Shown here: positions 8,263 through 23,920 of the stretch, piece after piece | Numbering within the stretch: position 1 is the stretch's first letter | Layout: each line of letters begins with the position of its first letter | Assembly (NCBI GenBank): GCA_021789095.1 | Contig: JAJYJX010000012.1 | Span: forward strand, 1-24,017 | Source of the DNA: a bacterium | GTDB taxonomy: Bacteria; JAMCPX01 | DNA length: 24,017 nt | Reading direction: 5' to 3' | Notes under the pieces: generated by a model | Databases searched by the model: none | What the model was told of the DNA's origin: nothing | What the model saw: the letters and a program-made list of their open reading frames with translations, nothing else | Translations under genes and position numbers: made by a program

Positions 8263-8362
8263 CCCCGTTAGAATATATACTATGCCTAACAGCGATGGTA
8301 AAACAAAACATGTTAGCTCCTTTTAGAAAGGATACGGTGTAACCCGGCTTCTTCTAATGGGG
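8263..8362. repeat. Degenerate inverted repeat pair CCCCGTTAGAA ... TTCTAATGGGG
   Basis: In the divergent gap between nadK and the rarA-type gene, CCCCGTTAGAA (8263-8273) faces TTCTAATGGGG (8352-8362), with one mismatch between arms about 80 bases apart. The same core forms a tight perfect inverted repeat at 23739-23778. This suggests a repeat family located next to gene starts. Confidence 0.45.
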
Positions 8363-20235: not shown

Positions 20236-21426
20236 CTAACTTGTATAGGTTGAATTGATACGGACATAATCATAGGTGAAATCGCAGGTCATTACATTAA
20301 ATCCTTTATTGCCTGAACCCAGGTCAACCGCAAGCTGGATGGTTCTGTTTTTCATTGAATTTCTTACTTTCAGCAGCGCATCATTGTCTATACCCTTGCC
20401 GCAGTTAAACACTATCTGTTTGCCTATCCAGATCTTCAGCCTTGATTCGCTTACATAGGGGCACGATGCTCCAACTGTTGCAACGATCCTGCCCCAGTTA
20501 GGATCTTCTCCGAAGAAAGCGGTTTTAATCAATGGTGAATTTGCAAGTTTAAACGCGACCCTTTTCCCGTCCTCTTCTGTCTTTGTGCCGGTAACGCTGA
20601 TCTCTATTACCTTGTTTGCGCCTTCCCCGTCCTTTACCATCTTTTCGGAAAGTTCTCTTGTCAGGTCTATCAGTGCCTGCTCAAACAATGAGTAATTTTT
20701 TCCATGTTCATTTATAATATCATTTTCTGCAAGCCCGTTGGCGAGAATGAATACCGTGTCGTTTGTGCTCATTTCTCCGTCTATGGTAATCCTGTTGAAC
20801 GATGCATCAGAAGCAGCAAGCATTGCTTTTCTGAGGGCACCTGGAGTTATGTTAACATCGGATGTAAAAAATCCAAGCATTGTCGCAAAATGCGGCTGTA
20901 TCATACCTGATCCTTTAACAAACCCTGTAAGTATGACTTCCCTGCCGTTGATCTTTAACCTCCTGGATCCGTACTTCGGAACAGTGTCCGTTGTCATTAC
21001 CGCTTTTACTGCATCCATAAAACCCTGTCTGGAAAGATCGTTCTTCAGGGTTATTATGTGGGCGTTAATCTTTTCAACAGGCAGCCTTCTGCCGATGATC
21101 CCTGTAGATGCAACAAGGACCTCTTCGGGCTTTACATTAAAGCCTTTGGCATATGCGTTTATGATCTCGTTAACATCCTTTATGCCGTCTTTGGCTGTTG
21201 CAGCATTTGCTATACCGCTGTTTGCAATTATGATCCTTTTCTTGCCCTTTTTAAGCTGGTTCATTGAAACTACAACAGGTGCAGCCTTTATGGCATTTGT
21301 GGTAAACAGGCCGGCTGCTATTGCCGGGACCTCCGAGTATACAATGGCCAGATCCTTTTTACCATCGTTCTTTATGCCGCATGGTGTCCCTGCATACAGA
21401 AAGCCCTTTGGTAACGATAGTGCCAT
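20236..21426 (-). CDS. argJ: Bifunctional glutamate N-acetyltransferase / amino-acid acetyltransferase
   Basis: A 396-residue cytosolic enzyme of arginine synthesis that transfers the acetyl group of N-acetylornithine to glutamate. The autocleavage site is HFATMLGF with the nucleophile Thr182, which splits the chain into alpha and beta parts. Other marks are ASTGIIGRRLP (107-115) for the oxyanion hole, GSGMIQP, RITIDGEMSTNDTV, KMVKDGEGANK, and FGEDPNWGRIVATVGAS. The common NSGNANA motif reads NSGIANA at 69-75, a small departure. The ATG is two bases after the DUF2889 stop, with AAGGAAGGA as ribosome site. The ArgA-like acetyltransferase at 5231-5692 would prime the cycle. Whether it also uses acetyl-CoA cannot be decided here. 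Confidence 0.96.
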   Translation of the reverse strand: MALSLPKGFLYAGTPCGIKNDGKKDLAIVYSEVPAIAAGLFTTNAIKAAPVVVSMNQLKKGKKRIIIANSGIANAATAKDGIKDVNEIINAYAKGFNVKPEEVLVASTGIIGRRLPVEKINAHIITLKNDLSRQGFMDAVKAVMTTDTVPKYGSRRLKINGREVILTGFVKGSGMIQPHFATMLGFFTSDVNITPGALRKAMLAASDASFNRITIDGEMSTNDTVFILANGLAENDIINEHGKNYSLFEQALIDLTRELSEKMVKDGEGANKVIEISVTGTKTEEDGKRVAFKLANSPLIKTAFFGEDPNWGRIVATVGASCPYVSESRLKIWIGKQIVFNCGKGIDNDALLKVRNSMKNRTIQLAVDLGSGNKGFNVMTCDFTYDYVRINSTYTS

Positions 21427-21428
21427 GT

Positions 21429-21887
21429 TTATCCTTCCTTAAAAACGATACAACTGTTTTTCAAATAAGGCATAACCTTTGCTATCCTCTCCTCTTCGCT
21501 TAGTTTTTTGCGTTTATCATGCGTACCATACCCGGCCTTAACACCTATTAGCATAGAAGCGGCAAATCTCATAGCGTTTTGTAAGATCTCCACAACGTGT
21601 GTACATCCTGCTGCATGTCCAAGCGCATCTGCTATCTTCTTGTTTACACCCCTTTCAATCCTAAAACCAATGATTTTCTCAATATTTACCGCTGCCATGG
21701 CGCAAGGTGTATAGGGCACCCGCATCATCTTGACGCCTGCATCGGCGATCCGTTGTGTTGAGAGGTCTATCTTTATTTCAATGCTTATACTGTGGTGGAG
21801 ATCCAGCAGCGAAGCAGCCAGAACAACAGTCTGTGCGTCGAGCTGACGCAGCCTTATATTTATATTTCTTTCATAAATATCATTCAT
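21429..21887 (-). CDS. DUF2889 family protein
   Basis: A 152-residue protein of the DUF2889 family, which has no established function. The family-like features are the early RLRQLDAQTVVLAASLLDLHHSISIEIKI strand pattern, DAGVKMMRVPYTPC, the conserved block AAGCTHVVEILQNAMRFAAS and the Cys-Thr-His in it. There is no signal peptide or membrane helix. Its ATG is three bases after the DUF35 stop, with GAAGAGG as ribosome site, so it is coupled to the thiolase/DUF35 pair. This suggests a role with that pair, perhaps in acyl-CoA or a related thioester pathway, but this is only inference from position. Confidence 0.82.
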   Translation of the reverse strand: MNDIYERNINIRLRQLDAQTVVLAASLLDLHHSISIEIKIDLSTQRIADAGVKMMRVPYTPCAMAAVNIEKIIGFRIERGVNKKIADALGHAAGCTHVVEILQNAMRFAASMLIGVKAGYGTHDKRKKLSEEERIAKVMPYLKNSCIVFKEG

Positions 21888-21890
21888 TTT

Positions 21891-22442
21891 CTAAACCTCT
21901 TCAGCAGGAACATACCAGAAGTCGCCCATGTCCCCGTTTCTTTCGTCTCTGAATTGTATCTTGACCTTCATACCTATCCTTGCCTTTCTTATATCCTTTA
22001 AGAATACATTCTGCATTATAAGAGTGTCGGCCCCGTCCACCCTTACAAATGCACATACATAGGGTGTCTTATCATAAAATACGGAAGTCCCATAATAAAC
22101 TATTGTATATGTTATAATCTCTGCGGTATCCCCGAGCCTTATCCATTCTGTAGGTGCATAGCATTCATTGCAGTTAATCCTCGGAGGCAGCCATACCTTG
22201 CCGCAGTGTGTGCATTTTGAGCCCAGCAGCTGCTTGTTGTCACGTATTTCTCTGAAAAATCTGGATATGCCGCCGTAACTGTACTTGTAAGTTATATCCA
22301 TACTATCTGGTATTTCAAGCGGGGCATCTATGGATGGGTTACCGTACAGCTCGTCTTTAAATGCCTTTTCAATGAGCTCCTTCGGGACCTTTATCTTTTT
22401 TGATGCGAGTTCAAGCCATTTTTCCTTGTTCTGAATCATCAT
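21891..22442 (-). CDS. Zn-ribbon/OB-fold (DUF35) acyl-CoA-associated protein
   Basis: A 183-residue protein. After an N-terminal helical part (to about 70) comes a rubredoxin-like zinc ribbon with Cys77, Cys80, Cys91 and Cys94 (CTHC and CNEC). An OB fold at about 100-180 contains YTIVYYGTSVFYDKTPYVCAFVRVDG. DUF35 proteins bind acyl-CoA and bridge partners of the thiolase fold, as in the archaeal HMG-CoA synthase-thiolase complex, BbsAB and the Ltp2-ChsH2 aldolase. The thiolase-like gene is directly upstream: the stop overlaps this start (ATGA). AAGGAG lies two bases before the first ATG (22442) and five before the second (22439), so the second may be the true start. Confidence 0.93.
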   Translation of the reverse strand: MMIQNKEKWLELASKKIKVPKELIEKAFKDELYGNPSIDAPLEIPDSMDITYKYSYGGISRFFREIRDNKQLLGSKCTHCGKVWLPPRINCNECYAPTEWIRLGDTAEIITYTIVYYGTSVFYDKTPYVCAFVRVDGADTLIMQNVFLKDIRKARIGMKVKIQFRDERNGDMGDFWYVPAEEV

Positions 22443-23725
22443 CGCTCCTTTACTCTTCGACCCCGTAACTTTCTATTATTTGAACCCTTGATCCTTTTAA
22501 CCCTTGATCCCTTTTTCTTTGCTTTAACTTTCTCAATCCTCTCCACGATCACCGCCGCTGTCCATGCTGTTGCAGGTCCGCCGATGCTCTGCACCAATCC
22601 GACCCTTGCGTTCTTTACCTGTCTTTTTTCTGCCCTGCCCTGGACCTGCAGTGCTGCTTCGCCTGTCTGCATAACACCTGTTGCACCTACTGCATGACCG
22701 CATCCGATCAGGCCGCCACTGGGATTGACAGGCAAAGAGCCTGTCATCTCGACAACACCATTTTCTATCAATTTGCCGCCTTCTCCGGGTTTGCAAAAAT
22801 TGAAAGCCTCATAGGAAAGTATCTCCGCACCTGTAAAGGCATCATGCAGTTCTGCGAAATCCAGTTCTTTTGCAGGATTTTTAATATCCGCCATCTTATA
22901 AGCATCCCTGCCCGCGTAAAGACTTGAAGTGAACACCGTTATGTCCTCCCTTTCTCCGGCAAAAGCTTTATCGAGTGAGAGCCCAACGCCTGTTATCCAT
23001 GCAGGGTTGTCTGCCAGGACTTTTGCCCTATCCTCCGAGGCGAGTATTATTGCGGATGCACCCTCTGAGTAAAGGCAGTTATCATAGAATTTGAAAGGAT
23101 AAGTAATCATTCTCGAATTAAGGACATCATTAACTGTAAGCAATTTAGGGCTCTGTGCAATGGGATTGTTCATTGCATTTTTATGGTTCTTGACGGAAAC
23201 CATTGCCATCTGCCTTTCAGTGGGTGTGCCGTACCTGTCCATGTGAGCTATCAATGGAAGGGCATAAGATGCCGCTGCTGTCAGGCCCATCGGGTTTTCG
23301 AACGTCATATCACCTGAAAACAGTATTGCTTTCAGTGTTTCCGGGGTCGCATGCCCGACCTGGTAGTTGTAATTGTCCGTTGCCTTCTCAACACCAAGCA
23401 CCATAACTATATCGTAAAGGCCGGATGCAACCCATGTCCATCCCACAAATACGGCTGCCCCCCCTGTTGCGCCTCCTGTTGCAACCCTTACAGACGGCTT
23501 GAGTCCCATGCCGATGTAATTATGAATATAAACATCCGGCATGAACTGCCTTTCAAAAAACTCGTTGTAAATGCCGTAAACAACACCATTCACCTCTTTC
23601 TTGTCTATGCCTGCATCGGCAAGCGCGGATTTTGCCGCATCAAATGAGAGCTCATAGTATGTCTTTTCCAGCCACCTTGCCCTGAACTGTGTTGTCCCGA
23701 AACCGACAATGGCCACCTTCCTCAT
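22439..23725 (-). CDS. SCP2/SCPx-type thiolase-like protein, apparently lacking the nucleophilic Cys
   Basis: A 428-residue thiolase-fold protein. Recognisable blocks are KVAIVGFGTTQF at the start, VATGGATGGAAVFVG at 81-95, YSEGASAIILAS at 219-230, ELHDAFTGAEIL at 292-303 with His294, NPSGGLIGCGHAVGATG at 334-350 with His344, and GLVQSIGGPATAWTAAVIVER near 376-396. In thiolases the second block carries the acylated cysteine (as in NACASGS); here the aligned residue is Gly85. The usual HDCFT reads HDAFT, and the late cysteine of thiolases is also not seen. Residues after about 397 form a Lys/Arg-rich tail that looks added. A GGAG ribosome site and the CCCCGTTAGAAA repeat lie upstream. It leads the eight-gene operon. 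It may be a C-C lyase or aldolase with the DUF35 partner. Confidence 0.88.
   Translation of the reverse strand: MRKVAIVGFGTTQFRARWLEKTYYELSFDAAKSALADAGIDKKEVNGVVYGIYNEFFERQFMPDVYIHNYIGMGLKPSVRVATGGATGGAAVFVGWTWVASGLYDIVMVLGVEKATDNYNYQVGHATPETLKAILFSGDMTFENPMGLTAAASYALPLIAHMDRYGTPTERQMAMVSVKNHKNAMNNPIAQSPKLLTVNDVLNSRMITYPFKFYDNCLYSEGASAIILASEDRAKVLADNPAWITGVGLSLDKAFAGEREDITVFTSSLYAGRDAYKMADIKNPAKELDFAELHDAFTGAEILSYEAFNFCKPGEGGKLIENGVVEMTGSLPVNPSGGLIGCGHAVGATGVMQTGEAALQVQGRAEKRQVKNARVGLVQSIGGPATAWTAAVIVERIEKVKAKKKGSRVKRIKGSNNRKLRGRRVKER
22470..22517. repeat. Short tandem repeat AACCCTTGATCC within the thiolase-like gene end
   Basis: On the plus strand AACCCTTGATCC occurs twice, 17 bases apart (22482-22493 and 22499-22510), each followed by T-rich sequence. 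It lies in frame at the 3' end of the thiolase-like gene, where it encodes the basic tail (GSRVKRIKGSNNRK). Similar AACCCTTGA arrays are usually intergenic, which suggests the stop codon was lost into a repeat. Confidence 0.5.
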
Positions 23726-23738
23726 ATATACTCCTTTA

Positions 23739-23778
23739 CCCCGTTAGAAAACCCCGTCTGCGTGCCTTTCTAACGGGG
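23739..23778. repeat. Perfect 12-base inverted repeat CCCCGTTAGAAA / TTTCTAACGGGG
   Basis: Arms at 23739-23750 and 23767-23778 are perfect complements with a 16-base loop that itself holds another ACCCCGT. It sits directly upstream of the thiolase-like gene's ribosome site, so it would be in the 5' leader if the promoter is further out. The same core occurs at 8263-8273 and, altered, at 8352-8362. Confidence 0.6.
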
Positions 23779-23920
23779 TTTACAGATTTTCATTCATATC
23801 ATATTTATATATTTTATCCAGTTTTTTATTCCCCGTCTTACAGCGCCAGAAGCCGGCGGCTTGCTCTAACGGAGAGGGTTGCCGGGATGACAAGTAGGAT
23901 TGTGTTGTTTGATGAATCGG

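Follow-up and report, generated by a model that had tools for sequence, protein, structure and literature searches.

A cysteine-less thiolase-like protein and its DUF35 partner as a candidate non-thiolytic acyl-CoA C-C lyase

What reaction might be catalyzed by a thiolase-like protein that carries glycine where the acyl-accepting cysteine is expected? This question is raised by contig JAJYJX010000012.1 (24,017 bases; assembly GCA_021789095.1), which in its entirety constitutes the window analyzed here and belongs to a 2.15-Mb bacterial draft genome that is 92% complete. Near one end of this window, a gene for such a protein lies tightly packed with those of two others, from the DUF35 and DUF2889 families, and a sequence-only reading had treated the three as a unit that may perform a retro-aldol or another C-C bond reaction on an acyl-coenzyme A (acyl-CoA). 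The non-thiolytic part of this proposal is backed by the absence of the Cys, the pairing with DUF35, and the selection acting on the gene, but the participation of DUF2889 is not. It is proposed here, with a probability of roughly one half, that the thiolase-like and DUF35 proteins together make up a two-component acyl-CoA C-C lyase operating by retro-aldol cleavage (possibly as a reversible aldolase) instead of thiolysis.

The thiolase-like protein retains the fold but only part of the catalytic residues of SCP2-type thiolases. Its AlphaFold2 model, built on a 13-sequence alignment (predicted local distance difference test (pLDDT) 78.3, predicted template modeling score (pTM) 0.83; weak at residues 56-61, 120-149, and 400-428), adopts the thiolase fold and aligns with SCP2-type and DUF35-partnered enzymes at VIA-align Z scores of 44-55, the best structural match being the archaeal thiolase 6et9 (Z 54-55). 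Alignments to solved thiolases and to 10 Cys-bearing relatives confirm that Gly85, within a GGATGG motif, occupies the column of the acyl-accepting Cys, which holds Cys in all 10 canonical relatives versus Gly in all 17 members of the clade to which the protein belongs. A different Cys filling this column was considered and rejected, as none of the three cysteines of the protein (Cys217, Cys311, and Cys342) aligns there; Cys217 and Cys311 are also present in canonical relatives, while Cys342 is invariant in the clade (17/17) and is replaced by Lys, Arg, or Phe in Cys-bearing relatives. The two histidines said to be retained are indeed in place in the alignments: His294 lies in HDAFTG, and His344, in GCGHAVG, corresponds to the GHP histidine of SCP2-type thiolases. 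QSIGG is a further motif. The substitution of HDCFT by HDAFT was likewise read correctly, with Ala296 replacing the second Cys of the HDCF motif, but its value as a mark of the lost nucleophile had to be rejected: HDAF coexists with the nucleophilic Cys in BbsB (7pxp) and in P. furiosus 7yvy, and only the Gly is therefore diagnostic.

This Cys-less state is conserved among the clade relatives of the protein. All nine genomes examined from the window's phylum encode an orthologue (85-89% identity in the eight besides the window's own), and the phylum also carries a sister protein at 59-61% identity. More distant relatives (58-64% identity) were found in 7 of 395 genomes sampled across the phylum that includes a Candidatus Zymogenus genome and that we take to be Desulfobacterota; a search at E < 1e-75 through 398 genomes from the phylum to which a Sneathiella genome belongs found no clade member. 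A quick-search tree (38 proteins, no bootstrap) resolves three groups with Shimodaira-Hasegawa-like approximate likelihood ratio test (SH-aLRT) support of 97-100%, and Gly at the nucleophile position together with both His residues is found in 17/17 members of these groups. GGATGG, HDAFTG, GCGHAV, and QSIGG are common to the 17 aligned members, one of which (L221) deviates beside the third motif. Because Gly is invariant in the clade while its codon differs among orthologues (GGC, GGT, or GGG), Gly85 is not a sequencing slip. The ratio of nonsynonymous to synonymous substitution rates (dN/dS) of the thiolase-like gene is 0.02-0.04 where dS is measurable, and the corresponding ratio of proportions (pN/pS) is about 0.11 otherwise, with synonymous sites close to saturation. 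A sequencing or pseudogene artefact is rejected by the conserved Gly, the variable codons, and the purifying selection; judged from these sequences, the Cys-less state is a fixed trait of the clade, maintained by purifying selection. Furthermore, a DUF35 gene adjoins the thiolase-like gene in every clade locus examined. Since the protein is Cys-less, DUF35-paired, conserved, and under selection, a non-thiolytic C-C reaction is the best reading of its function.

A reaction course, residue roles, and a substrate type can be put forward for the complex predicted from the observed gene order, residues, clade, and context. Two retro-aldolases, Sal and Ltp2, share the thiolase fold and a DUF35 partner; Sal carries Gly in place of the nucleophile and relies on the catalytic pair Tyr302/Cys304, and Ltp2 uses Tyr294/Tyr344 (PMC12329534). 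Because the window protein has no Cys at the nucleophile position, no acyl-enzyme would form. The DUF35 protein would complete the channel for CoA and substrate, its role in other thiolase-DUF35 complexes, and a 3-hydroxyacyl-CoA would be bound. His294, which stands where Ltp2 has the base Tyr294 and Sal the base Tyr302, as judged from the motifs and spacing given in PMC12329534 rather than from direct alignment, would remove the 3-hydroxyl proton; the C2-C3 bond would then break, and His344 would assist in stabilizing and reprotonating the acetyl-CoA enolate. The analogy to Ltp2-ChsH2 drawn by the sequence-only reading holds in its reaction logic, whereas the Tyr/Tyr (Ltp2) and Tyr/Cys (Sal) residues are absent. 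In the relatives, the second product would plausibly be a beta-keto acid, which would make a compound of the 3-hydroxy-3-alkylglutaryl-CoA type the substrate.

The gene neighborhoods of the relatives strengthen this aldolase-like reading, which appears plausible on genomic context. Five of the seven distant loci share the order thiolase, DUF35, BKACE, AMP-dependent ligase, and MaoC and also include an acyl-CoA dehydrogenase gene; the BKACE of locus L216 scores 346 bits to PF05853, and a BKACE gene also lies next to a more distant DUF35-thiolase pair (L023). TRAP or ABC uptake genes accompany the distant pairs in L217-L220, as identified by Pfam on proteins of L217, L218, and L220 and by sequence recognition in L219. 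The sister pair occurs in the order acyl-CoA dehydrogenase, thiolase, DUF35, ScoA, and ScoB in five of six loci, and in L212 the two latter proteins (3-oxoacid CoA-transferase A and B) exceed their NCBIfam cut-offs. BKACE moves the acetyl part of a beta-keto acid onto acetyl-CoA (PMC6365646), and retro-aldol cleavage of a 3-hydroxy-3-alkylglutaryl-CoA would deliver a beta-keto acid and acetyl-CoA, both substrates of the neighboring enzyme. The methyl-substituted case would yield acetoacetate, a usual substrate of 3-oxoacid CoA-transferase, the enzyme encoded next to the sister pair. In addition, a search of L209-L221 with two 3-hydroxyacyl-CoA dehydrogenase (HAD)-type and three short-chain dehydrogenase/reductase (SDR) query proteins, rather than by full annotation, detected no 3-hydroxyacyl-CoA dehydrogenase, except for two SDR-like genes approximately 5-7 kb away in the sister-type locus L214. 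Such a dehydrogenase would be required before thiolysis, so that a hydratase without it ahead of C-C cleavage fits a retro-aldol reaction.

Several points weigh against retro-aldol cleavage. The proven bases (Tyr of YDxF) and acids (Cys304, Tyr344) of Sal and Ltp2 are absent, and no precedent for His/His catalysis was found. The 3-hydroxyacyl-CoA dehydrogenase could be encoded elsewhere, and BKACE clusters are also compatible with ordinary acetoacetate recycling, a setting in which one would expect a genuine thiolase (PMC6365646). Moreover, no BKACE was found in the nine genomes of the window's phylum, and the window pair itself has no catabolic neighbors but sits in an argJ directon; the substrate of this copy may therefore differ.

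A narrower form of the proposal is that the clade comprises thiolase-fold, DUF35-partnered His/His lyases performing the 3-hydroxy-3-methylglutaryl-CoA (HMG-CoA) lyase reaction, or its longer-chain equivalent, and feeding BKACE or 3-oxoacid CoA-transferase. This version is tentative and rather unlikely as it stands; if true, nature would have solved the HMG-CoA lyase reaction a second time with an unrelated protein. HMG-CoA lyase is invoked here purely for its function; the window protein has the thiolase fold, and PRK05692 is absent from its 25 NCBIfam matches. The nine genomes of the window's phylum yielded no HMG-CoA lyase above cut-off (best 63.7 of 246 bits), and the sub-threshold matches, mostly frames of 500-760 amino acids, are probably 2-isopropylmalate synthase-like and carboxylase proteins. 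A literature search found no publication linking HMG-CoA lyase and beta-keto acid cleavage to acid mine drainage. The proven thiolase-fold aldolases in the literature found act in steroid side-chain breakdown only, and a non-steroid Cys-less clade linked by operon to BKACE or 3-oxoacid CoA-transferase would extend aldolase chemistry to other branched acids. It would also give a directly testable function to genes annotated as "thiolase domain-containing protein", and their annotation as acetyl-CoA acetyltransferase is probably wrong.

Three other accounts of the Cys-less protein are each considered unlikely. The first is a thiolase or acyltransferase with a relocated nucleophile, in which Cys342, two residues before His344, would be the acyl acceptor. 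Its invariance in the clade, a Cys at the same position in two other Cys-less proteins (L034 and L226), and BKACE and ScoAB neighbors suited to acetoacetate metabolism with a thiolase (PMC6365646) speak for this possibility; however, Cys342 lies outside the nucleophile column, in a column where Cys-bearing relatives have varied residues, and, on general knowledge, Cys342 would lack the local activation of the classical position. No more probable is a catalytically inactive protein, either a scaffold or a pseudoenzyme that binds acyl-CoA, serving to hold DUF35 and a partner enzyme. The loss of the nucleophile would suit this role, as would the second, Cys-bearing SCP2-type thiolase encoded beside a DUF35-like protein in the same genome (L037), but both catalytic His residues and the clade-specific active-site motifs are fixed across two phyla, acyl-CoA operons house two of the three clades, and dN/dS falls to as little as 0.02. 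Similarly improbable is a biosynthetic direction, namely aldol or decarboxylative C-C bond formation (e.g., between an acetyl-CoA or malonyl-CoA enolate and a keto acid), especially in the argJ-linked window-type clade. One enolate-stabilizing site would, on general knowledge, serve both directions, the nearest solved relative comes from the archaeal thiolase/HMG-CoA synthase/DUF35 complex, where it is the thiolase component, and the window copy lies outside any catabolic operon; nevertheless, the uptake transporters, CoA ligase, and acyl-CoA dehydrogenase near relatives point to breakdown, and the argJ adjacency is observed in one phylum only.

The DUF2889 protein meets the gathering score of its family (PF11136, 60.3 bits vs. 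a cut-off of 25). A three-part enzyme with DUF2889 as the third subunit, suggested by the 3-base gap to DUF35, by a gene order kept in eight of the nine genomes of the phylum, and by DUF2889 genes within acyl-CoA gene clusters of Pacificitalea and Variovorax, is very improbable and was rejected on recurrence, given that genome G006 retains thiolase, DUF35, and argJ but has 166 bases in place of DUF2889, that 13 sister and distant Cys-less pairs are without it, that a thiolase-DUF35 pair is missing from 43 of 44 other DUF2889 neighborhoods (contig ends truncate some of them), and that it evolves approximately twice as fast as its neighbors (pN/pS about 0.2 vs. 0.11). The sole DUF2889 of G006 lies elsewhere (L041), and the lone neighborhood that has both DUF35 and a thiolase is a Variovorax replicon in which the thiolase is Cys-bearing. 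The linkage whose recurrence the sequence-only reading had named as a check recurs only inside the window's phylum and together with the argJ directon; as the rest of the directon recurs as well, the conserved triad is not independent evidence. DUF2889 is most likely a closely spaced neighbor with its own role and drops off the list of likely subunits.

Some further features of DUF2889 were observed. The protein had no match among PDB sequences and no confident Foldseek match. Many IscU/SufU structures can be aligned with its model (pLDDT 74), at Z 5 to 6.5 over approximately 95 residues (model residues 12-115 to IscU about 23-126), as can the LplA C-terminal and NqrC/RnfG domains. The conserved cysteine (C95) of its GC(T)H motif would, by range offset, fall near Cys106 of IscU, and the IscU/SufU likeness (Z < 8, Foldseek E > 0.1) may be taken as a weak lead to the fold. 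On the Variovorax replicon (L048:8776-16324), DUF2889 lies upstream of genes for SDR, MaoC, a long oligonucleotide/oligosaccharide-binding (OB)-fold (DUF35) protein, the Cys-bearing thiolase, an acyl-CoA dehydrogenase, and a CoA-transferase. In three genomes of the Zymogenus phylum (L116, L121, and L128), DUF2889 directly follows purA, as judged by sequence recognition, unlike in the window.

The three tightly packed genes described earlier were recovered as minus-strand reading frames with concordant Pfam assignments (Table 1). The DUF35 gene overlaps the thiolase-like gene by 4 bases, but the packing runs on past DUF2889: argJ begins 2 bases beyond it in the same tight directon, followed on the same strand by a lytic transglycosylase-like gene, a tetratricopeptide repeat (TPR) protein gene, and a pgsA-like gene with gaps of -61 to +8 bases. 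The directon order around argJ is kept in relatives, and the contig ends approximately 290 bases upstream of the thiolase-like gene. The DUF35 protein shows the features of its family, with a zinc ribbon (C77-x2-C80-x10-C91-x2-C94), an OB fold, and a gene adjoining that of a thiolase-fold protein, and it has an N-terminal extension of approximately 55 amino acids.

Table 1. Genes and active-site codons of the thiolase-DUF35 locus (window positions)
Feature	Position	Strand	Basis or remark
Cys-less thiolase-fold protein, 428 aa	22439..23725	(-)	Pfam Thiolase_N / Thiolase_C_1
Gly85 codon, column of the nucleophilic Cys	23471..23473	(-)	Alignments; Gly in 17/17 clade members
His294-Asp295-Ala296 codons, HDAF replacing HDCF; position of YDHF (Ltp2) and YDCY (Sal)	22838..22846	(-)	Alignments; PMC12329534 for the Ltp2 and Sal motifs
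Cys342-Gly343-His344 codons; His344 = GHP histidine	22694..22702	(-)	Alignments
DUF35 protein, 183 aa	21891..22442	(-)	Pfam zf-ChsH2 + OB_ChsH2_C
DUF2889 protein, 152 aa, GCTH motif	21429..21887	(-)	PF11136
argJ	20236..21426	(-)	PF01960, 442 bits; TIGR00120 above cut-off

No Rfam family was found in the window. A palindrome, CCCCGTTAGAAA...TTTCTAACGGGG (23738-23779), forms a strong predicted hairpin (z -4.2) just before the ribosome-binding site of the thiolase-like gene and was not found upstream of this gene in those relatives that were compared. The window has similar arms at positions 8263-8362, as do L032 and L035 from its genome and also L012 and L045, and the element is probably a small dispersed palindromic repeat. 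The genome also carries further Cys-less thiolase-like/DUF35 pairs at L034:1-2082 and L035:5082-8398, one beside a methylmalonyl-CoA-mutase-type B12-binding subunit and the other in a locus where thiolase-like and DUF35 genes are both present twice. L226, L227, and L228 represent a different Cys-less subgroup (GGATGA/HDAF), whose DUF35 partner is long (approximately 330 amino acids).

Among characterized systems, the archaeal thiolase/HMG-CoA synthase/DUF35 complex provides the nearest solved structure to both proteins, the DUF35 protein matching 6esq chain E at 53.7 bits. However, its thiolase has the nucleophilic Cys, and the HMG-CoA synthase bound there is not encoded next to the window pair. 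The benzoylsuccinyl-CoA thiolase BbsAB (PDB 7pxp; Z 50) is likewise a thiolase-DUF35 pair with HDAF, but BbsB has the nucleophilic Cys, unlike the window protein, and the NCBIfam equivalog cut-offs are not reached (147.1 of 750 bits for BbsB and 21.8 of 250 for BbsA). The thiolase-like protein ST0096 of Sulfolobus tokodaii (PDB 4yzo; Z 49.7) is also without a Cys nucleophile, although Ser rather than Gly stands in the column and the second motif is HDMA.

The steroid aldolases share the proposed reaction logic. Sal-Shy, which Comamonas testosteroni uses as a bile acid side-chain aldolase (PMC12329534; PDB 9myr; Z 45.7), resembles the window system in fold, in the Gly at the nucleophile position, in its DUF35 partner, and, with respect to the distant clade members, in its MaoC hydratase and acyl-CoA dehydrogenase neighbors. 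It differs in its YDCY motif, in which both Tyr302 and Cys304 are essential and neither is present in the HDAF of the window protein, and in the zinc ribbon, which is C3H1 in Shy versus C4 in the window DUF35; steroid genes were not recognized for the window system. Ltp2-ChsH2 (PDB 6ok1; Z 46.1) has the thiolase fold, a DUF35 partner, and the same C-x2-C-x10-C-x2-C C4 ribbon. Where Ltp2 has Tyr294 and Tyr344, the window protein has His at the motif position, in all clade members, and again at the equal 50-residue spacing (His344). Aldolytic steroid side-chain cleavage likewise involves an acyl-CoA dehydrogenase and a MaoC hydratase, the combination seen, with no 3-hydroxyacyl-CoA dehydrogenase detected, in the loci of the relatives.

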